This document shows, one piece after another, positions 525-11,262 of a stretch of DNA of 13,044 bases (position 1 is its first letter; every line of letters starts with the position of its first letter). This stretch comes from Gammaproteobacteria bacterium (GTDB lineage Bacteria; Pseudomonadota; Gammaproteobacteria; Pseudomonadales; Azotimanducaceae): NCBI GenBank assembly GCA_018667205.1, contig JABIVN010000193.1, positions 1 through 13,044 of the forward strand, given 5' to 3'. A program made the position numbers and the translations under genes. The notes under the pieces are model-generated. The model saw nothing but the letters and a program-made list of their open reading frames with translations. It did no database searches and was not told the origin of the DNA.

Positions 525-1778
525 TCACTCAAACAATGCTTCGTTAACCCCCGCCTGGGTCATTCCGGGCTCCGGACCTGGCTTCACGGTATCGAGTTGA
601 GCAATGATCGCCTCGGACAGCTCAGTGGCACTCATTTCGTTTGGAGATAAAACCGTAGCGACACCAACACGCTCCAAATCAGTCGCATTGGCGAATTGGT
701 CGGTCGAAAAAGGTAACACCAGCTGTCGCACTCCAGTGCCAAGGCACTCTTGCACGCTGTTGTTTCCACCATGGTGAATGGCCAGGTCTGCATAGCGCAG
801 CATTGCCACTTGCGGCAGCTCCCTAGAAACGACCCAGTCGTCAGGTACCGTGCCAAGATCGTGTTTCGGCATTGAACCGATTGCCATTGCAGCCCTCGCA
901 CCCACCTTACGAAGCGCTTCGGCAACGCGCGCAAGGACATCAACTCGGTGCGATAAAAAAGTTCCAAGAGCAACGTAAATTTGTGGCCTGTTGTCTTTTT
1001 TATCGCGCCAGGCGTCCATATTTTCAGGCAGCGTTTCCTCTCTCACAAGCGGGCCTACGAACCGATGATCTAAGCTTAACTCCGCTGACCGCAGCGCACT
1101 ATGGTAACGAGAGACACTATTATAAAGCACCCGTCGACCATGAACTCTGAAGGCGTCTTCTACCGGCGGACGCTCAGGCGCCACCATCGCTAGAGCGCTA
1201 TTCCAACGATCAGTAAAGGCAGCCGTTACGGTATCCGCGAGCCGCTCAACCTCGTTGAGTTGCTCATTGTCGGGACGCATGCACGCTGGCCACTCAGCAG
1301 GGATTCCGTAGCGTTCCTTACCCACCGGTAGCTGGCTAGGGTGACCAGGCACCAGTGTCATGAAGTCCTCCCCGATGGCATACATTGCCAAAGTTGATCC
1401 GAAGGATACATGGTCGACCAACACCTCTTCGGGTTCGAGATCTTTATACAGCGCAGTGACGGAACCCACCACCTGCTCAGGATTCCACAGCAAATCCACT
1501 TGCCTTTGCATCGCTTGATATCGAATCGTGTCAAGCGGCCCCTGCCGAGTGGCTGCCAGAAAGCGATCGATAGAGGCATTCCTAGTAACAACACCGCTAT
1601 TCGAACTCGCAGCGAGATTCAGCTCACGCCACTCAAACCCCTCGACTTTCACTCGTGGGCGTAAGCTGTGACCCGTCGCAATCACGACCCGCCGGCCGGC
1701 CTGCTGTGCCGCTCGAGCCATTACGGCCAACGGACCATAATGGGACGCGTAGTCAGGGCTGATCACTAGCAACGTCAT
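525..1778 (-). CDS. GT1-family glycosyltransferase (UGT/MGT-like)
   Basis: This is a 417-residue cytoplasmic GT-B glycosyltransferase that probably moves a sugar from a nucleotide-sugar donor onto a small hydrophobic acceptor. The N-terminal domain opens with MTLLVISPDYASHYGPLAVM, the usual first strand plus a His (residue 13) where GT1 enzymes place the catalytic base. The C-terminal half shows VGPL (241-244), YVALGTF (268-274), and the donor-site signature HHGGNNSVQE (335-344) followed by PFSTDQFANA (356-365), matching the HGGxNS...DQ pattern of the family. Length is normal. Donor and acceptor cannot be told from sequence. The ATG overlaps the stop of the upstream GT4 gene (ATGA, 1775-1778), so the two are almost certainly co-transcribed and translationally coupled. 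It is the last gene of the operon, and no clear terminator follows. Confidence 0.9.
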   Translation of the reverse strand: MTLLVISPDYASHYGPLAVMARAAQQAGRRVVIATGHSLRPRVKVEGFEWRELNLAASSNSGVVTRNASIDRFLAATRQGPLDTIRYQAMQRQVDLLWNPEQVVGSVTALYKDLEPEEVLVDHVSFGSTLAMYAIGEDFMTLVPGHPSQLPVGKERYGIPAEWPACMRPDNEQLNEVERLADTVTAAFTDRWNSALAMVAPERPPVEDAFRVHGRRVLYNSVSRYHSALRSAELSLDHRFVGPLVREETLPENMDAWRDKKDNRPQIYVALGTFLSHRVDVLARVAEALRKVGARAAMAIGSMPKHDLGTVPDDWVVSRELPQVAMLRYADLAIHHGGNNSVQECLGTGVRQLVLPFSTDQFANATDLERVGVATVLSPNEMSATELSEAIIAQLDTVKPGPEPGMTQAGVNEALFE

Positions 1779-3952
1779 CTGTAGGACGGTTCCGCCTGGT
1801 AGACGCTGACCAGCTGTGATGCCATTGCCGCTATCGAGTAACGCTCTTCTACCAATGTCTGGGCCCGCTTGACCCGACCGGGAAGATTGACGAGACTTAT
1901 GCCATGTCGTATTCCTGCCGCAAGATCGGCGCCTGGATCAACAAGAACGCCTGTATCACCATGTACCACGTAGGTGGGCGGTCCACCGGTACTCGGTGCA
2001 ATCACCACCAGTCCTGCGGCCATGGCCTCGATCAAGGCAAGGCCGAACTCTTCCTTCAACGCCCCATCAACGTATAAGCCACCCTTCGACCAGAACCCAA
2101 CACGGCCTTGAACGGTGGCTACGAGCAGCCTAGCAACATCGGCTCGCGGCCTACCACCAAGAAGTACAAGGCCCTCCCGGAGCGGACTTTCCAACGGGAT
2201 TACCTGATCTATGGCATTAAGCACCGTTTGCTCAGTCTGTGTCGGGTTAACCAGGTCACCGCCGACGAGCACAAGGTTGTAACGTGAATGAATAAGTGGA
2301 TCGGCAGCCCAAGCTGCGGCAACCCTTTCCATCCCTTTAACGGGATTAAAACGACCAATACTAAGCAGGAGGGGCAAATTCCGACGACTTTTAGGAATCC
2401 GACCAGCAAGCTGGAGAAGAATATCTGGCTGCTCTTGAGTTTCTTTTTCTCCGCAGTCGTAGGTTCTCTCTGCCCGACGAATCAGATCGACATCGATACC
2501 TTCTGACACCACCGCCACCCGTTGACCGTAACGGCGAGAATCAATTCCGAACACGTCGAGCAGTTCGCCAGGTTTCGCGCGCGGAAACAAGACCAAACGA
2601 TTCGCGCGTTCGGCCAACCTCTCGACTAGCCGTGCCCGGAACCACAAATGCTCCTTGGCGCACAGTTGAAGAAATTTATCCTGATCAAGTTCACCGCGTG
2701 ACTGCAGCGAGTGAATCACATTGTGCGGATCTGGGGCCGCACTAAAGCATACCGGAACACCCAACGCTTCAGCCACCTCTGCACCGGCGAGCGTGCCGGC
2801 ATCGGCCATACGAAGATGCAGCATGTCGATTGGAGCAGCTTCCTGCATCACCCGGCGAAGCCCACGCTTGATCGCTGGAAGGTGCTCCCAGGCAGCATCC
2901 GGGGTTTCTGCAGGACGACCATGGTCTCCGACCGTTATCATGGCGTACGCCAAGGCGCTGTCTTTTAAATAACCAGGTTTGCTTAGGCTGTCAGCGAAAG
3001 TCCCGCGACCGATAGTAAGCACATGGTCGACTTCTGGACGGCAGGCCAACGCCTCACCCAGCGACACCAGCAGGCTGGCCACGCCACCTGTATCACCAAG
3101 ACCACCACGGCTAAGCTTTCCGTCCAGTCCGGCCGCCAGCACAAGCTGAGCGATTCGTAAACCAGCGTTACTACATTGCGCCGGTGGTGCTTTAAATACT
3201 TCTAAATCGCTTAACGCCAGAGCGGCATGGGTGCCGATCACGTCTTCCGCGCCGGCGAGTCTTTGCAAGGTTGCCCGGCTATTAGACCCGGGTCGGTCAC
3301 CCAAAGCACCAATTGCCGCGATTCGCGCCGCCAATGCCTCCCCAGAATCTGCAGCAAGCCGAACTAAGAGTTCATTTGAGTGCTTTAAAGAACCTAGAAG
3401 GTCAACAAGGCGCGCGCGAACATGGCCGTCGTCGACACTTTCTAACGCGCCCGCGAGGTGAGCCCTGATCCCATCAGGGCTAGCGGTCGACCATCTGCGT
3501 AACGTCCGAAACGCGTGCATCGAGTCTATCCCGCCAACAGCAAGCTGTTCGACAAGTGGCCCGAAGGCAGATGCAATGGGCTTTCTTCGACCCAGCAGCC
3601 AGGTGGCATGACGCCTGACCAGTTGAAATGGGTGTGCCAGAAGCGCTATAAGTTGCTGGTCAGCGCTGCGATCCTTGACGGCGGCGAGAGACTCCATTAC
3701 TAGCAGACTCGAAAAGGCTCCCCCTTCGGAAAAGGACTTTAAATCGACCATCAGACCCCGTGGATCCGCAGAGCGGCTAGCAATACTTGCAAGCTGAGAA
3801 GAACGCGTCATTACCCGTAAAAAGTCGTCACTCCTCATCAAAAACTCAAACTCGACCAACAATTGGCTATTCGACAGGACCCCGCATTCGTCTTCGCGCA
3901 CGTAGCTCTCGTGATTAGAAACCTGAATCAGGCTCACAAAATCCGCCCACAA
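1775..3952 (-). CDS. HEAT-repeat protein fused to a sucrose-synthase-like GT4 glycosyltransferase
   Basis: This 725-residue protein has two parts. Residues about 60-255 are helical and repetitive, with HEAT/PBS-lyase-like units (for example HPFQLVRRHATWLLG, and ARIAAIGALGDR). From about 262 a GT-B glycosyltransferase follows: GGLGDTGG (283-290) resembles the donor-domain loop of sucrose synthase, sucrose-phosphate synthase and glycogen synthase, and HLRMADAG (379-386) resembles the HxHYADAG segment of sucrose synthases. The C-terminal domain has SIGRFNPVKG (531-540) and the E-x7-E motif in EEFGLALIEAMAAG (634-647). It is therefore a retaining GT4-type enzyme. No signal peptide or membrane helix is obvious. 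The first possible start at 3952 is TTG without a clear ribosome-binding site; GTG codons at residues 6 and 18 or ATG at residue 39 are alternatives. It overlaps the following GT1 gene by four bases. Acceptor and biological role are unknown. Confidence 0.85.
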   Translation of the reverse strand: MWADFVSLIQVSNHESYVREDECGVLSNSQLLVEFEFLMRSDDFLRVMTRSSQLASIASRSADPRGLMVDLKSFSEGGAFSSLLVMESLAAVKDRSADQQLIALLAHPFQLVRRHATWLLGRRKPIASAFGPLVEQLAVGGIDSMHAFRTLRRWSTASPDGIRAHLAGALESVDDGHVRARLVDLLGSLKHSNELLVRLAADSGEALAARIAAIGALGDRPGSNSRATLQRLAGAEDVIGTHAALALSDLEVFKAPPAQCSNAGLRIAQLVLAAGLDGKLSRGGLGDTGGVASLLVSLGEALACRPEVDHVLTIGRGTFADSLSKPGYLKDSALAYAMITVGDHGRPAETPDAAWEHLPAIKRGLRRVMQEAAPIDMLHLRMADAGTLAGAEVAEALGVPVCFSAAPDPHNVIHSLQSRGELDQDKFLQLCAKEHLWFRARLVERLAERANRLVLFPRAKPGELLDVFGIDSRRYGQRVAVVSEGIDVDLIRRAERTYDCGEKETQEQPDILLQLAGRIPKSRRNLPLLLSIGRFNPVKGMERVAAAWAADPLIHSRYNLVLVGGDLVNPTQTEQTVLNAIDQVIPLESPLREGLVLLGGRPRADVARLLVATVQGRVGFWSKGGLYVDGALKEEFGLALIEAMAAGLVVIAPSTGGPPTYVVHGDTGVLVDPGADLAAGIRHGISLVNLPGRVKRAQTLVEERYSIAAMASQLVSVYQAEPSYR

Positions 3953-4644: not shown

Positions 4645-6297
4645 TCATCGAGTTTTAGCGTCCATAGCGGCTATATAGGCGTAGGTCATGGCAGCGCCAA
4701 TCGTCCCGCCGGCGCCGGGATAGTAGTTACCCATCACCGATGCTGAGCTGTTGCCTGCGGCATAGAGACCCGGCACTATTGTGCCATCGTCGCGAACCAC
4801 TTGTGCGTGTTCGTTGGTTAGCAATCCACCTTTTGTACCCAGGTCACCCGCCTTTACTTCCATGGCGTAAAAAGGCGCCTTTGCAACGGTCCCCAGACAG
4901 GCATTAGGCTTGTGACTAGGGTCACCCGCATAAAGATCAAATGCACTTTCACCCTTTTGAAAGTCTTCATCCTTGCCGGCTATGGCCATTTCATTAAACC
5001 GGGCGACAGTTTGTCTAAGACCATCGGCATCTATGCCTGTTAACTTAGCCAAAGCTTCCAGCGTATCCGCCCGCTTCACATAACCGTTCTCGATATGCCT
5101 TTCAGGCGTAACCCCTGGCAACAGGCCACCAATCGCATAACGGCTACGAAACTGCTGATCAAAAATGATATACGCAGGTGGCGCAGTATCCTCAAAAATT
5201 AGCCGACCTAGCTCATTATAAGGTCTGGCTTCATTCGCAAAGCGCTGACCGCGTGCATTAACGATCATCATGTGTGGCAGACCACGTTCAAACACAATAA
5301 TGACAGGTGCGCTGTCTGGCGGCAGCGCGGATGGCATCCACCACATGTCATCCATAAGATCCATCGCTGCGCCAATTCGAGCGCCTGCATTGATGCCGTC
5401 TCCAGTATTACCGGGCGAACCAGAAGTGACGCTGCCTGTATTCCAATCGCTTCCGCCTTTGTCGCCAAAGAACTGTTTTCGCATAGCAGCGTTGCGCTCA
5501 AACCCACCCGCCGCCATCACTACGCCTTTTCTTGCACGTATGTTGATCCTCGCACCATCTTTTGTGGCACGAACACCCACGACAACCCCATCTTTTAGCA
5601 CTAAGTCTTCCAGCGGTGTTTCAAGCCATAATGGCACATCTTTTTTTTGCAGAGTAAGGCGCAACCGGGCAATGAGCGCCCTGCCGCTGGAAAGGTGCTC
5701 TCGCCGAGCTAGCTTGTTCCAAAGATTACGCGGGAAGAATCTCCAGACCTGCAACAGCCCAAGCGGATTGGCGCGAAAGAATGCCAGCCGGCGTAGTTCA
5801 GTCACGGAACCCACGACACCACCCGGCACCGCAAGGTTCGACTTTCGTAATTTGTCATAATCGTTAATCCGCCGCCCCGAAATCACCTTAGGATCAATCG
5901 ACCGGCCGCCTTTAGAGCCACCTGGCGTTTCCGGTCGGTAATCGGGGAAACCATGTACCAGATTGAATTTTAGCTCACTGTTAGCCATTAAATAGTCGGC
6001 CATTTCAGGCGCACGATCGACAAACGCCCGCAGTTTGCTGTCTGCCACGCGTTGGCCAATATTATGTTTTAAATAGGTCAGCGCCTCGTCTGGATCGTCA
6101 TCAATGCCTGCCTTCGCCATTAACGAATTATTCGGTACCCACGCAACCCCGCCAGATAACGCCGTTGTGCCGCCATAAAACGGTTCTTTTTCAAGTACGA
6201 TCACCTCCAGCCCCTCATGATCGCCAACAATGGCAGCGGTCAAACCGGCGGACCCCGTGCCAATGACAATGAGGTCTGTTTCAAAATCCCAACTCAC
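4645..6297 (-). CDS. 3-ketosteroid delta1-dehydrogenase-like FAD flavoprotein
   Basis: About 550 residues of the fumarate reductase/KstD flavoprotein family. Such enzymes use FAD to remove hydrogens from carbons next to a ring ketone, as in 1(2)-desaturation of 3-ketosteroids. Numbering from the upstream GTG at 6306: the FAD Rossmann motif is VIGTGSAG (14-21), followed by the acidic ribose binder in LEKE (38-41) and GGTTALSGG (45-53). The C-terminal FAD loop is GLYAAGNSSASVMG (513-526). Tyr123 (PDYRPE), Tyr363 (NEARPYNE) and Tyr529/Gly533 (NYYPGAGG) fall where the catalytic tyrosines and glycine of Rhodococcus KstD are, as I remember them; no alignment was run. I prefer the GTG at 6297 as start because AGAGG lies eight bases before it, whereas the GTG at 6306 overlaps that site. 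Related delta4-dehydrogenases or flavoproteins acting on other cyclic ketones are possible. Confidence 0.8.
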   Translation of the reverse strand: MSWDFETDLIVIGTGSAGLTAAIVGDHEGLEVIVLEKEPFYGGTTALSGGVAWVPNNSLMAKAGIDDDPDEALTYLKHNIGQRVADSKLRAFVDRAPEMADYLMANSELKFNLVHGFPDYRPETPGGSKGGRSIDPKVISGRRINDYDKLRKSNLAVPGGVVGSVTELRRLAFFRANPLGLLQVWRFFPRNLWNKLARREHLSSGRALIARLRLTLQKKDVPLWLETPLEDLVLKDGVVVGVRATKDGARINIRARKGVVMAAGGFERNAAMRKQFFGDKGGSDWNTGSVTSGSPGNTGDGINAGARIGAAMDLMDDMWWMPSALPPDSAPVIIVFERGLPHMMIVNARGQRFANEARPYNELGRLIFEDTAPPAYIIFDQQFRSRYAIGGLLPGVTPERHIENGYVKRADTLEALAKLTGIDADGLRQTVARFNEMAIAGKDEDFQKGESAFDLYAGDPSHKPNACLGTVAKAPFYAMEVKAGDLGTKGGLLTNEHAQVVRDDGTIVPGLYAAGNSSASVMGNYYPGAGGTIGAAMTYAYIAAMDAKTR

Positions 6298-6305
6298 AGT
6301 ATTCA

Positions 6306-6310
6306 CCTCT
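6306..6310 (-). promoter_or_regulatory. Ribosome-binding site that decides the KstD-like start
   Basis: AGAGG on the minus strand, eight bases before the GTG at 6297. It overlaps the other in-frame GTG at 6306, which therefore could not use it. Confidence 0.5.
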
Positions 6311-6377
6311 ATTCCCTCGGTAACTTGACGGATTTACGCTATAGGTTCGACACTTTTCTATCACGACTGTCATACGA

Positions 6378-6394
6378 TTGACGGTTTAAGTCAA
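6378..6394. promoter_or_regulatory. Inverted repeat TTGAC-N7-GTCAA, possible operator
   Basis: A dyad about 80 bases upstream of the KstD-like start, a position where a repressor or activator could bind. The five-base arms are short and could be chance. The TTGACGG half recurs at 6325-6331. Confidence 0.27.
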
Positions 6395-6520
6395 GCGATG
6401 GCTATAGCGCAATTGTCACCCGCGACCTTTAACTATCATGGCCGAAGAAACTCACAAAAAACTGTTTACTTCGCCCTCTAACCCAAAAATTCTTTGGATA
6501 GAGTTGTAGGTTGGAGAGCG

Positions 6521-6549
6521 ACCGGTTAACTTAACTCCGCTCAACCGGT
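6521..6549. promoter_or_regulatory. Inverted repeat ACCGGTT-N15-AACCGGT
   Basis: Perfect seven-base arms lie in the divergent promoter region, about 240 bases before the aminotransferase gene. It could be an operator or a hairpin; no T-run follows, so it is not a terminator. Chance cannot be excluded. Confidence 0.3.
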
Positions 6550-6788
6550 GGCATAGCCCCTATTTATAATCCTTCGGATAGCACTCAAAATTGACTCAGG
6601 TACCTTATTTTTATTGACGAGTATTTAATTAAGCGATTCAGCGCCTCTAACCTTAAAATACAGGCAGGCTTCTTCTAGATGGTGCGCCCTCTCAGGTTTT
6701 TCTGGAACTGAATAAGTCTATTTTCGGGTAGATTCGCTTTTACTGGATTACTGACAAAAATTCTTATCCTCTGCACAGGAACATCTAA

Positions 6789-8588
6789 ATGGAAATAGCA
6801 AATATCTTTCAAACCTGGCTCCAAGGTTCGGTAAAAGACGACCGTGCGTGTCGTCGTATTTTCGACAGCATCGACCTGGACGGTTCGGGGACTATTTCTC
6901 TAGACGAGCTTGACGCTGTTTTTGACTCTCTTGACGAGCCCGTTGAAAAGCATGAAGCCGCATCCCTAATGGCTCGGATAGATGAAGACAAGAGTGGGCA
7001 AATCGATTACGAGGAGTTCAAAAGCTTCATTCTTCAGCTCACGTCTTTCGACAAGCATCACCAGGACAGTGATTTTCAAAAAGCCTACGACAAGTGGTGG
7101 AGCAGCCAGAGAGTCGAGGGAGCGCAAGCATCGTCCTCTGATGAGGTAAACGCGGGCAAAGTACTACTTCCTACGAACATCAATCCCTGCGTGCGCAAGG
7201 TACAGTACGCTGTTCGCGGAGAACTCCTGATGCTGGCCGAGCAAATTGCCGAAGAGTTGCGACAAGGAAAGAAAAAACCGTTCGAAGAGGTACTTTTTTG
7301 CAACATCGGAAATCCCCAAGCGGTGGAACAACCGCCGATCACCTTTTACCGGGAGGTACTCGCCCTATGTGATCATCCGACGCTGATTAACCATCCCGAC
7401 GCGAACAAAATATTCTCCATAGACGCCATAAAACGAGCCAAGCAGATAACGGAATCAATCCCTGGGGGTACAGGGGCATATAGCCATAGCCAAGGAGTGG
7501 TGTCGATTCGCCAGAATGTCGCCGATTTCATCACCCGGCGGGATGGATTCCCTTCGTTAACAGAAGATATCTTTCTCACCAACGGCGCATCGTCCGGCAT
7601 CGCACTATTGCTTCAGGTGATGCTCGGCCGCCCGGAGGATGCCATGCTGGTGCCGATCCCCCAATATCCCATTTATAGCGCGCTCACCGAACTAGCGGAC
7701 GGCAAGACTTCGGGCTACTACCTGGATGAAGACTCCGGCTGGGGCTTAAAACCTTCCGAGCTACAAAACGCTCTCGACAAGGCCAAAGATAAAGGCCTAA
7801 ACCCGCGTGCTATGGTGGTCATTAACCCGGGAAATCCGGCCGGTCAATGCCTTTCAAGGCAGGTGCTCGAGGATATTGTGCGCTTCTGCAAAGAGAATCG
7901 ATTGGTTCTGCTCGCAGACGAGGTCTACCAGGCCAATATCTACAGTAAAAAGAATTTCATCTCCTTAAAAAGCGTCGTGCGCAGCCTTGGTAACGCTTTC
8001 GACGATTTTGAGTTCATCTCGTTTCATTCCACGTCCAAGGGGCTGATCGGAGAGTGCGGCCGTCGCGGGGGGTATATGGAGGTTTGCGGACTACATCCCC
8101 AGGTAAAAGCGGCCATGATCAAGCTGGCCAGCATTTACCTTTGTCCCAACTTGGACGGGCAGGTAATGACCCAACTGATGACTACACCGCTGGACGAAGA
8201 TTCGCCGTCTTACCAGAACTTTAAAAAAGAAGAAGGTGCCATCTTCAGCTCGCTTCAGAGAAAAGCAGCTATGGTCTACGACGTCATGGACAAACTGGAG
8301 GGGGTTTCCTGCCAACGGTTGGAAGGCGCGATGTACGCCTTCCCGCGCATCTCGCTCCCCGCAGGGGTGATTGACGAAGCTGCAGCCCAAGGTATTGCAC
8401 CGGATAGCCACTATTGTCGCTCCTTGCTGTTGTCCACCGGCATCTGCACAGTCCCGGGTTCCGGGTTCGGACAAAAGCCGGGAACATTCCATATCCGGAT
8501 GACCTTTCTGCCCGAGCAAGATGCTTTGGAAAAAGCCCTGTTGCGTCTGGAAGAACATCACCGCAACTACCTGGACCGCTACCGATAA
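6789..8588 (+). CDS. EF-hand pair fused to eukaryote-type alanine aminotransferase
   Basis: A 599-residue protein. Residues about 18-85 form two EF-hands with complete 12-residue calcium loops: DLDGSGTISLDE (29-40) and DEDKSGQIDYEE (65-76), each with Asp at 1 and 3, Ser at 5, Gly at 6, Ile at 8 and Glu at 12. After a linker (about 86-125), residues about 126-599 are a full fold-type I aminotransferase of the alanine aminotransferase (GPT) kind: NIGNPQ (172-177), GGTGAYSHSQG (226-236), VINPGNPAGQ (344-353), LADEVYQ (375-381), the PLP lysine Lys417 in STSKGLIGECGRRGGYMEV, and the carboxylate-binding Arg570 in HIRM. It should interconvert alanine and 2-oxoglutarate with pyruvate and glutamate in the cytoplasm. 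An AGGA lies eight bases before the ATG. Calcium control of activity is inference. It stands alone, divergent from the KstD-like gene. Confidence 0.93.
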   Translation: MEIANIFQTWLQGSVKDDRACRRIFDSIDLDGSGTISLDELDAVFDSLDEPVEKHEAASLMARIDEDKSGQIDYEEFKSFILQLTSFDKHHQDSDFQKAYDKWWSSQRVEGAQASSSDEVNAGKVLLPTNINPCVRKVQYAVRGELLMLAEQIAEELRQGKKKPFEEVLFCNIGNPQAVEQPPITFYREVLALCDHPTLINHPDANKIFSIDAIKRAKQITESIPGGTGAYSHSQGVVSIRQNVADFITRRDGFPSLTEDIFLTNGASSGIALLLQVMLGRPEDAMLVPIPQYPIYSALTELADGKTSGYYLDEDSGWGLKPSELQNALDKAKDKGLNPRAMVVINPGNPAGQCLSRQVLEDIVRFCKENRLVLLADEVYQANIYSKKNFISLKSVVRSLGNAFDDFEFISFHSTSKGLIGECGRRGGYMEVCGLHPQVKAAMIKLASIYLCPNLDGQVMTQLMTTPLDEDSPSYQNFKKEEGAIFSSLQRKAAMVYDVMDKLEGVSCQRLEGAMYAFPRISLPAGVIDEAAAQGIAPDSHYCRSLLLSTGICTVPGSGFGQKPGTFHIRMTFLPEQDALEKALLRLEEHHRNYLDRYR

Positions 8589-8726
8589 CGTCATTGAGTC
8601 GACTCACCAACTGTTATGGTGCGTTTAATAGCGCAACGGGAACATCCGCTAATCAGCCCTGCCATCAATGATGGCGGAACAATACCCGCTTTCAAACGAG
8701 CGGAAAGCTAGCCCGTGCGTGTCGTC
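8589..8726. other. Gap after the aminotransferase gene with two small hairpins
   Basis: GCCATC-AAT-GATGGC (8661-8675) and CCGCT-N8-AGCGG (8686-8703) could fold into hairpins. Neither is followed by a T-run, so a rho-independent terminator is not supported. TGAGTCGACTCA (8595-8606) is a perfect palindrome just after the stop, of a length expected a few times by chance in this window. Confidence 0.35.
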
Positions 8727-8849
8727 ATGTCTTACGTTTATGATCGCGGTACTTCTGGCTTAGCGTCCCAGTTCTGCGGGTACGGGCGCAAGCCGGAGGA
8801 AAAGCATCTCCTACATCGATTTCCATCACCAGCAAAGGATGTGACATGA
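8727..8849 (+). CDS. Possible 40-residue ORF overlapping the next small gene
   Basis: An ATG at 8727 (or an in-frame GTG at 8715, which has GGAAAG about seven bases before it) opens a frame beginning MSYVYDRGTSG and ending PSPAKDVT. Its TGA overlaps the ATG of the following ORF as ATGA at 8846-8849. It has no recognisable motif, signal or membrane segment. The overlap arrangement is the main reason to list it. It may be chance or the leader of the next ORF. Confidence 0.25.
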   Translation: MSYVYDRGTSGLASQFCGYGRKPEEKHLLHRFPSPAKDVT

Positions 8850-9052
8850 GCGCCCCGTGCCTGACCTACAAAGGAACCTGCGAGTTGCTCAGTGATCAGG
8901 AAACAAAAGACTGGCTCCTGTCCAATCGGGCAAAACGGTTGCATAGTAGCGATAAACAAGCACAAAGGGCTTTAGCCAGGCTCAACCACACACCCAATCG
9001 GCGCGTGCTAAAATTCAACCCGGTCAAAAAACAGCCTTCGACAGCCGTATAA
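8846..9052 (+). CDS. Small hypothetical protein, 68 residues
   Basis: A basic protein beginning MSAPCLTYKGTCELLSDQET, rich in Arg and Lys toward the C-terminus (KRLHSSDKQAQRALARLN, then NRRVLKFNPVKK). It looks soluble, with a likely helical middle and no membrane segment. AAGGA lies seven to eight bases before the ATG, a good ribosome-binding site. No family is recognised. The basic tail could suit nucleic-acid binding, but that is only composition. Two antisense frames cover it, and I take them to be shadows. It faces the DUF3127 gene convergently. Confidence 0.5.
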   Translation: MSAPCLTYKGTCELLSDQETKDWLLSNRAKRLHSSDKQAQRALARLNHTPNRRVLKFNPVKKQPSTAV

Positions 9053-9131: not shown

Positions 9132-9521
9132 CTAAAATGGAATGTCATCATATTCGTTATCATCAAAAGGTGGTGGCGAGGCACCTTGTTCTTCCTGAGG
9201 CGAAGAATGTGATTGTCCTGACGCCGGATTCACGCGCCAAGCCTGCAAACTGGTAAAACACTTCTCCGGATTACCCCCGCCTGACCAAAGTCGTCCCGAA
9301 AGATTAAACTGCACTTGGATTTCATCGCCAATATTGTGAGCATCCATCATTGCACACTTGTCTTTAATCAATTCAAGGGCAATATGATTAGGGTAGGCTG
9401 GGTTTTCATTCTCGCCGGTCAGCTTGATCACGAACTCGCGTTTTGTGAAACCGTTGTTGCCATATTCAGTGGTATCGCCAATGGAATGGATCAGTCCCTG
9501 GACTTCAAAACTTTGTGACAT
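9132..9521 (-). CDS. DUF3127 family OB-fold protein with SSB-like acidic tail
   Basis: A 129-residue protein. Residues about 1-97 match what I know of DUF3127: an opening FEVQGLIHSIGDTTEYG, then GFTKREFVIKL (24-34), a central AMMDAHNIGDEIQVQFNLSGR (57-77), and SLQAWRV (91-97). This gives an OB-fold-like beta barrel. After a Gln/Ser/Pro-rich linker (98-119) the protein ends in FDDNEYDDIPF, which copies the acidic, Phe-terminated tip that bacterial single-stranded DNA-binding proteins use to dock partner proteins. It probably binds single-stranded nucleic acid in the cytoplasm, but this is inferred from fold and tail. AGGAG lies about ten bases upstream of the ATG. It appears monocistronic. The family is, to my knowledge, most common in Bacteroidota. 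Confidence 0.8.
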   Translation of the reverse strand: MSQSFEVQGLIHSIGDTTEYGNNGFTKREFVIKLTGENENPAYPNHIALELIKDKCAMMDAHNIGDEIQVQFNLSGRLWSGGGNPEKCFTSLQAWRVNPASGQSHSSPQEEQGASPPPFDDNEYDDIPF

Positions 9522-10071: not shown

Positions 10072-11262
10072 CTACTGATGCGTCACCGGTAACTTCGCTC
10101 GCCCCCAGAATAGGAACGGACCGACCCGTTCACCCTCATTAACTAACCGCAACTTTGGATAGCACTTACGAAGTGCCGTTAATGTCACCCTTGCCTCAAG
10201 TTTCGCCAATTCTCTGCCAATACAAACATGCAAACCCACACTGAAGCTCAACATCTTTTTCCCAGAGCGCTTTAACTTGAAGGCGTTCGGTTCGGGAAAT
10301 GCTTGCGGATCCCTATTTGCCGCACCGTAATGCATCATCACTTTGGTGTTAGATGGTATCGTCACGCCGTCAACGTCAACGTCCCGTGATGTCGTTTTGA
10401 ACAAACCCAACAGCGGCGGATCGAATCTCAAGCTTTCGTTAATTGCATCGTCTACGTCAATTTCACCCCGACAAAACTCGTTCCACAAATCACCAATTGT
10501 CAACAATCGCCAGACCAGATTTGAGATCAACGACGTCGTTGTTTCGTTCCCCGCAACAAATATCTGACCCGCGAACGAAACCAATTCGTCATCCGACATA
10601 TATTCCCCATCTTCTTTGGCTAGTGCCATAACGGATAACAGGTCATTCGATTTTCCTGCTTTTCTCTTAAGATGAATCTGTTCCAGAATATACTCACCCA
10701 TCTCGGCTAGTTCGACCGCATATTCAGAGGGGTCTTCCGCACACATGTTTGCCACCGAAGCATCCGCCCACCTTTTGAATTTTTTAATGTCATCAGTAGG
10801 TAGCCCAAGAATCTCACATATGATGATTACTGGAAGCGGAAAAGAGAGCTCATCATGTAAATCCCATTCCGCTTTTGACGCAACCGCATCCAACAATTCC
10901 TGCACGATTTCTTCCAACCTGGGTTGCAGATCACTAATCTTCTTGACCAGGAAATCACGCTGAATAAGACCTCTGGTGAAGGTGTGATGCGGCGCGTCTG
11001 ACAAAATGCCCTGAGACGGCTGAAAGTTAGGCCCGTTGCCGAACCCTTCGACATAAGTTTCTGCATCTAACAACGCACTGTTGATATCTTCATATCTGGA
11101 TAAAATAAAGAAGGGTGGGTCGAATTTGTCATAAAAATATGCCCTTTCCCGACCTAAAAGCTTTGCGGCCGTTATCGACGGGTCTTGAAGCTCTTCCTCA
11201 CCTAAAAGATCAACGTCTTTTGTCTGGGCTTTTCCCATATCCATCGTTTCTTCAAATTCCAT
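10072..11262 (-). CDS. Cytochrome P450 monooxygenase
   Basis: A soluble bacterial-type P450 of 396 residues, a normal length, with no membrane anchor. The I-helix oxygen-binding motif is AGNETT (237-242), the K-helix ExxR is ESLR (276-279), and the heme loop is FSVGLHVCIG (340-349), with Cys347 the axial ligand. It should insert one oxygen atom into an unactivated C-H bond, using electrons from a ferredoxin and reductase, neither of which is encoded in this window. The substrate cannot be told from sequence, though its place behind a Baeyer-Villiger-type monooxygenase points to an alicyclic, terpenoid or steroid compound. GGAG sits just before the ATG and overlaps the end of the upstream small ORF, so translation of the two is probably coupled. 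It is the last gene of the operon. Confidence 0.95.
   Translation of the reverse strand: MEFEETMDMGKAQTKDVDLLGEEELQDPSITAAKLLGRERAYFYDKFDPPFFILSRYEDINSALLDAETYVEGFGNGPNFQPSQGILSDAPHHTFTRGLIQRDFLVKKISDLQPRLEEIVQELLDAVASKAEWDLHDELSFPLPVIIICEILGLPTDDIKKFKRWADASVANMCAEDPSEYAVELAEMGEYILEQIHLKRKAGKSNDLLSVMALAKEDGEYMSDDELVSFAGQIFVAGNETTTSLISNLVWRLLTIGDLWNEFCRGEIDVDDAINESLRFDPPLLGLFKTTSRDVDVDGVTIPSNTKVMMHYGAANRDPQAFPEPNAFKLKRSGKKMLSFSVGLHVCIGRELAKLEARVTLTALRKCYPKLRLVNEGERVGPFLFWGRAKLPVTHQ

Follow-up and report, generated by a model that had tools for sequence, protein, structure and literature searches.

A bacterial alanine aminotransferase fused to a predicted calcium-binding EF-hand pair, and its relatives in diatoms and cryptophytes

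The EF-ALT locus and its bacterial setting

The DNA considered here, referred to as the window, is a stretch of 13,044 nucleotides (contig JABIVN010000193.1 of GenBank assembly GCA_018667205.1) from a metagenome-assembled genome (MAG) of a gammaproteobacterium of the family Azotimanducaceae, which measures 3.2 Mb in 614 contigs and is 69% complete. It contains a gene, here named EF-ALT, whose reading frame begins with ATG and runs through 599 residues with zero internal stops. The gene and its surroundings are made up as follows.

4645..6306, minus strand: 3-ketosteroid-delta-1-dehydrogenase-like (KSTD-like) flavoprotein, left flank (Pfam/NCBIfam matches and same-genus loci)
6413..8702, no strand: segment of 2.29 kb that holds the EF-ALT gene and is without counterpart in four same-genus genomes (blastn)
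6777..6780, plus strand: AGGA, putative ribosome-binding-site-like motif 8 nt 5' of the ATG, read from the sequence
6789..8588, plus strand: EF-ALT gene (EF-hand alanine aminotransferase), 599 aa (open reading frame, Pfam, PDB and Foldseek evidence)
8703..9031, plus strand: remnant of a disrupted PNPOx-like gene, matching residues 54-148 of the 166-residue protein
9132..9521, minus strand: DUF3127 protein, right flank
10072..11262, minus strand: cytochrome P450, further right flank (89-93% identity in same-genus loci)

The DUF3127 protein was found at 89-93% identity in four of the 16 other same-genus genomes, and the corresponding locus stretches of these four (L034-L037) were compared with the window. 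The KSTD-like protein is 85-93% identical in all of them, over the whole length in L034 and L037; the match covers the first 218 residues in L035, up to the end of its contig, and no more than the first 78 in L036. Nucleotide similarity (blastn) ends at positions 6396-6412 and restarts at 8703-8707 in all four comparisons, and no match to EF-ALT is present in L034-L037. Their interval is occupied instead by a gene for an acyl-CoA dehydrogenase domain and by the start of a gene for a PNPOx_N domain (Pfam, on the L034 copies), the other three copies being 95-98% and 92-94% identical, respectively, to those of L034. The acyl-CoA-dehydrogenase-like gene has no match in the window, and the PNPOx-like gene, intact in L034-L037, is reduced to a remnant that lacks its start; a stop immediately upstream closes the frame, and adjacent parts of the same protein turn up in other frames. 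Thus, from comparison of the sequences, it is most likely that resident sequence gave way to the EF-ALT segment in this lineage, a polarity favoured over the opposite one because the latter would leave the broken PNPOx-like remnant unexplained. At third codon positions the GC content is 0.60 in EF-ALT versus 0.45-0.56 in six neighbours in the window. Participation of a mobile element in the insertion was considered and set aside, the searches at the segment junctions having yielded no tRNA, no Rfam match at the gathering score and no convincing repeat. Promoter and terminator scans of 6300-8750 were uninformative (one and four sites versus shuffle means of 2.0 and 3.5).

The fragmented state of the MAG and the eukaryote type of the enzyme could be taken to indicate eukaryotic contamination or an assembly chimera. 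This explanation is hardly credible and is ruled out by the synteny of the flanks, given that both, on the same contig as EF-ALT, match the same-genus genomes (four genomes, 85-93% protein identity). It is further opposed by the uninterrupted frame, by a cluster of 99% identity (P0001) that stands for 46 sequences with a longest contig of 29 kb, and by the existence of 12 further fusions, three of which are named as bacterial MAG proteins (Proteobacteria, Polyangiaceae and Xanthomonadales). The preliminary description of this DNA, which had argued for a bacterial gene rather than a contaminant, is therefore upheld by the flanks.

Towards the left end of the window, positions 1775-3952 encode a protein of 725 aa, in which a HEAT match below threshold precedes a glycosyltransferase part with weak resemblance to sucrose-phosphate synthase. 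This protein is present in two of the 16 other same-genus genomes and adjoins a glycosyltransferase gene (525-1778) with a weak match to macrolide types.

Domain architecture and calcium loops of EF-ALT

Within the EF-ALT frame the following elements can be distinguished, all on the plus strand.

6846..7031: EF-hand pair, residues 20-81 (Pfam; AlphaFold2 model, block pLDDT 78-94 over residues 11-80)
6873..6908: predicted Ca2+ loop 1, residues 29-40, DLDGSGTISLDE (sequence, conservation)
6981..7016: predicted Ca2+ loop 2, residues 65-76, DEDKSGQIDYEE (sequence, conservation)
7065..7106: linker helix after the EF pair, residues 93-106 (AlphaFold2 model; weakly shared with diatoms)
7149..8585: eukaryote-type alanine aminotransferase part, residues 121-599 (PDB matches, Foldseek)
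8037..8039: Lys417, expected pyridoxal phosphate (PLP) Schiff-base lysine, within STSKGLIGECGRRGGY (invariant in 53/53 rows of alignment A2)

The protein matches Pfam EF-hand_7 (E 6.6e-14, 52.4 bits, cut-off 30) and Aminotran_1_2 (128.3 bits, cut-off 19.7); the EF-hand match and those to solved alanine aminotransferases given below are far above the chance level. The AlphaFold2 model, calculated with 53 sequences, has a mean pLDDT of 88.2 and a pTM of 0.87, the weak ten-residue blocks being 111-120 and 381-390 (pLDDT 57 each). In the model the EF-hand pair consists of helices 18-28, 38-46, 54-64 and 74-84 with short strands in the loops, as expected of such a pair. In the canonical 12-residue EF-hand loop the ligands are at positions 1, 3, 5, 9 and 12, with Gly at position 6. 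Loops 1 and 2 of EF-ALT have acceptable ligands at all five positions, Gly at 6, and, in both cases, Asp at 1 and Glu at 12, so that the pair is of the calmodulin type, each of its two helix-loop-helix units having a canonical loop of 12 residues, and the initial claim of complete calcium ligands in both is borne out. In the near-identical P0001 loop 2 reads DEDKNGQIDYEE. On these grounds EF-ALT is predicted to bind Ca2+ through its two loops. No signal peptide was noticed by eye in the sequence.

The aminotransferase part is of the eukaryotic GPT/ALT type, as indicated by full-length alignment to solved alanine aminotransferases and by the conserved PLP-lysine motif. Barley AlaAT (3tcm) aligns to residues 121-599 (E 3.3e-154) and human ALT2 (3ihj) to residues 130-598 (E 1.2e-137), and 3tcm is also the best solved Foldseek match of the model (TM 0.96 by target and 0.77 by query length; rmsd 1.8). 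Lys417 we take, from its role in the family, to be the residue that forms the Schiff base with PLP. EF-ALT thus shares catalytic fold and motif with the barley and human enzymes, which, however, have no EF-hand domain ahead of the enzyme, their alignments starting at chain residues 19 and 27, respectively. The single frame was initially read as an EF-hand pair joined to a full eukaryote-type alanine aminotransferase, and the reading frame, Pfam and PDB matches agree with that reading: EF-ALT is a genuine EF-hand/eukaryote-type ALT fusion within a bacterial genome. A search of the protein with Pfam at E 0.001 gave no match to a cyclic-nucleotide-binding-like domain.

The same genome also encodes a typical bacterial alanine transaminase of PRK08175 (741 bits, cut-off 647), the AlaC family. 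The AlaA and PRK08175 enzymes are, like EF-ALT, fold type I PLP enzymes and by annotation catalyse the same reaction, but they are only about 24-30% identical to it, comprise about 400 aa and have no EF-hand. PRK08175 is not among the best 25 of the 59 NCBIfam families matched by EF-ALT, and the top match, to another family, reaches 145.6 bits versus a cut-off of 534. Since the genome has its own PRK08175-type enzyme, EF-ALT is an extra enzyme with room for a special role.

Residue 351 of EF-ALT is Ala instead of the Thr of the NPGNPTG motif. Thr is found in 16 of the 18 rows of alignment A1, and Ala in the window protein and the near-identical P0001 only.

The alignment of the 13 bacterial-clade fusions gives information on how the EF-hand domain has been maintained. 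The ten ligand positions have a conservation of 0.81, compared with 0.52 in the rest of residues 1-114 and 0.74 in residues 130-599, and only eight of 5000 random ten-position sets drawn from residues 14-113 did equally well. By a seven-position rule both loops are complete in 10 of the 13 proteins (nine of these ten being only 51-78% identical to the window protein) and incomplete in P0008 (loop 1), P0017 (loop 2) and P0018 (both). The ligand conservation, together with two complete loops in 10/13, therefore argues for selection on Ca2+ binding. The bacterial-clade relatives P0015, P0016 and P0020 lack the EF-hand domain, which is therefore dispensable in part of the clade. These domainless proteins, along with those with incomplete loops, are what might be expected if the EF-hands were a passive leftover of the donor, with no useful binding of cytosolic Ca2+ and no effect on the enzyme. 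Retention of both loops in 10/13 fusions at such sequence divergence would be unexpected without selection, and the passive-leftover reading is considered quite improbable.

Relatives in bacteria and algae and the origin of the fusion

The distribution of the EF-ALT gene is sporadic. With a threshold of 1e-60 it was found in none of 205 other genomes of the family, none of 368 of a class sample and none of 397 of a phylum sample, and a search of 57 relatives at 1e-40 gave one match, a distant transaminase covering residues 230-591 at 37%; these genome sets overlap and include incomplete genomes, and scoring in the large searches was confined to the best few candidates of each genome. A scan of genome contigs with the single protein returned distant aminotransferases only (18 loci, best segments 22-28%), probably because the search patterns fell in variable stretches, and a plasmid search returned 37 records, all below 60% identity and none spanning 80% of the query. 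The protein database contains at least 13 distinct bacterial-clade fusions, including the window's own cluster, a lower bound as are all fusion counts given here, being drawn from the best 120 of several thousand matches per protein search. Besides the three named as MAG proteins, the other nine fusions outside the window's cluster were assigned to bacteria by tree position.

The same layout is found in a group of 120 proteins chosen by search rank (P0126, P0133, P0134, P0161 and P0167-P0282), here called the diatom group, some of which carry organism names. UniRef lists those of Thalassiosira oceanica (P0253), Corethron hystrix (P0264) and Cylindrotheca closterium (P0272) as 'EF-hand domain-containing protein'. 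The proteins of the group are mostly of 590-670 aa with the domain order of EF-ALT, namely, as in P0126, P0133 and P0167, an N-terminal EF-hand region, a linker and a eukaryote-type ALT, and identity to the window protein is 41-45% for the 12 included in alignment A3. They differ from EF-ALT in that at most one loop is complete and in that they form a separate catalytic group. Among the 105 of the 120 with at least 120 residues ahead of the catalytic domain, the seven-position rule found one complete loop in 45 and two in none, i.e. no complete second loop in any; the best loop scores at least 6 of 7 in 88/105, and a complete loop appeared in 0/2100 shuffled N-termini. Pfam placed one of 15 scanned proteins (14 of the 120 plus P0137) above the EF-hand cut-off and 11 below it, with no match in P0134, P0137 and P0268.

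A second arrangement is that of the cryptophyte-type proteins, P0025, named Hemiselmis andersenii, and P0021, P0023, P0024 and P0026, placed by the tree. These too have EF-hands N-terminal to a eukaryote-type ALT, but with about 330-445 residues before the enzyme and, in between, a domain resembling cNMP-binding domains, for which EF-ALT shows no match at E 0.001. The cyclic-nucleotide-binding match lies between EF-hands and ALT in all five, above the Pfam cut-off in P0026 only (27.8 versus 27.5) and below it in the other four. The combination might provide a double second-messenger input.

Thus, the proposal that the architecture is unseen among known alanine aminotransferases proved too strong, diatom, cryptophyte-type and MAG fusions being already present in databases. 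The database check suggested at the outset did recover the same EF-hand/ALT layout; characterisation of it was not found, as no paper on an EF-hand alanine aminotransferase appeared among the literature matches listed, judged from titles and abstract openings.

The catalytic tree comprises 82 domains and was calculated with a quick method and with a midpoint root only. The 18 bacterial-clade rows (13 fused, four unfused and P0005, a 420-aa fragment that had been labelled unfused) form one group with SH-aLRT 97, the nearest to which are two eukaryote-type rows (support 88). P0044, labelled bacterial unfused by guess, fell among eukaryotes. In the free tree P0009 nests with the unfused P0015 and P0016, which implies domain loss or regain; holding the 13 bacterial fusions and P0005 together (14 rows) was not rejected (p-AU 0.19). 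Transfer from a protist, or shared ancestry with a protist gene, had been put forward from the start as a possibility, and it is live, the tree placing the bacterial-clade ALTs with eukaryotic neighbours.

Whether the fusion arose once or separately in bacteria and diatoms is a question of origin that is independent of those on function. The 18 diatom-group rows form a group of their own (support 99) and fall outside a group of 40 rows in which bacteria, cryptophytes and others are united (SH-aLRT 84), which speaks for separate origins, as do the different arrangement of the cryptophyte EF-hands and the absence of an EF-hand match from the diatom-group tree members P0137 and P0268. On the other hand, the domain order is identical, and a profile of the N-termini of 13 bacterial-clade proteins matches that of 11 diatom-group proteins (P0134, the twelfth aligned, being left out) with a probability of 98% and E 1.1e-13, the match extending into the linker. 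The linker by itself matches only weakly (probability 19%, E 0.0012), yet above all 60 column shuffles; likewise, none of 60 shuffles reached the score observed with the EF pair alone or with the complete region. Furthermore, a tree with bacteria and diatoms constrained as one clade was not rejected (p-AU 0.265). Separate origins are accordingly judged possible, if somewhat short of an even chance, and a single fusion shared by bacteria and diatoms is plausible from these comparisons. The profile match as such is not decisive, since EF-hands resemble each other anyway. The cryptophyte EF-hands match the bacterial profile less well (probability 81%, E 1.2e-5) than those of diatoms do, which disfavours a cryptophyte origin of the bacterial EF-hands.

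As for direction, a paper on a diatom isocitrate dehydrogenase cites a study that assigns a bacterial origin to stramenopile EF-hands (PMC7460673), which would favour the bacteria-to-eukaryote direction for that domain. It may tentatively be imagined, although this is considered rather unlikely, that one calcium-sensing ALT module moved between bacteria and algae, while cryptophytes built a parallel version with EF-hands and a cyclic-nucleotide-binding domain. If so, most bacterial versions of the mobile module would have kept both Ca2+ sites and those of diatoms one at most, and ALT would be a recurrent point at which second messengers act directly on microbial carbon-nitrogen exchange.

Calcium and the function of EF-ALT

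The explanation proposed as a whole, to which somewhat better than even confidence is attached, is that EF-ALT is a laterally acquired, Ca2+-binding and probably Ca2+-modulated alanine aminotransferase. The gene would have arrived laterally, in a place where, compared with the relatives, one gene is missing and a second is broken. Its product would catalyse the conversion of L-alanine and 2-oxoglutarate into pyruvate and L-glutamate, with PLP on Lys417, and its N-terminal domain would bind two Ca2+ ions. Binding would rearrange the EF pair, and the change would reach the N-terminal part of the aminotransferase through the helical linker, so that activity or stability would change upon a rise in cytosolic Ca2+. 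Here, we infer Ca2+ binding, the cytosolic location, the direction and size of the effect, the substrate pair and the path and direction of transfer. An effect of Ca2+ on activity or stability is the most likely outcome, by inference from the strong EF-hand and ALT matches, the conserved ligands, the confident model of the EF region and the lineage-specific replacement; the incomplete loops in 3/13 fusions, the domainless relatives and the lack of a complete second loop in the diatom group are points against this explanation. The stretch 111-120, which follows the linker helix and separates the EF domain from the enzyme, is modelled with low confidence (pLDDT 57) and gives no support for tight coupling between the two.

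The nearest experimental precedent found is PtIDH1, the NAD-isocitrate dehydrogenase of the diatom Phaeodactylum tricornutum, in which a central-metabolism enzyme is likewise fused to an EF-hand; its catalytic fold is unrelated, and the EF-hand is C-terminal with one described loop (PMC7460673). Deletion of the EF-hand disrupted the dimer and activity, mutation of the sites lowered calcium tolerance, and what was shown for the wild-type enzyme is Ca2+ tolerance, not Ca2+ activation; according to its authors the domain occurs in no more than a few stramenopile algae, and they assume that it was transferred laterally (PMC7460673). EF-hand-fused metabolic enzymes are thus already known as a kind, of which EF-ALT is a variant.

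The PtIDH1 case speaks no less for a structural role than for a switch. In the structural reading the EF-hand domain would hold Ca2+ permanently and aid dimerisation or stability, as suggested by the disrupted dimer and by the loss of calcium tolerance in the site mutant (PMC7460673). The retention of the domain after loss of ligands, in P0018 and in the second loop of diatom-group proteins, would also fit a scaffold. However, in the bacterial fusions the ligands are better kept than the remaining domain, and the existence of domainless relatives implies that the enzyme fold does not need it. A purely structural module is therefore regarded as unlikely, though less so than a passive leftover, and a calcium-modulated enzyme is the preferred reading.

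Apart from EF-ALT, a single protein of this incomplete genome matches EF-hand_7 at E 0.01. It comprises 167 aa, shows four EF-hand matches and has an N-terminus that looks signal-like by eye; its gene, on another contig (C379 of G000; L040:1324-1827), lies directly upstream of a gene with sigma-70 regions 2/4 (ECF-like; L040:1841-2374). The two resemble the CaBP-sigV pair of Caulobacter (PMC13171946).

The interest of EF-ALT lies in its being a candidate for a sensor and a central-metabolism enzyme in one protein; few bacterial enzymes are known to take a Ca2+ signal directly. Natural relatives with two, one or zero complete Ca2+ loops, or with no EF-hand domain at all, make calcium control directly testable. 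With the same layout occurring in diatoms, one may ask whether the alanine metabolism of phytoplankton is steered by calcium, and by what route a gene of this kind passed between bacteria and eukaryotes. Thus, EF-ALT raises the possibility that calcium steers carbon-nitrogen exchange in some microbes.
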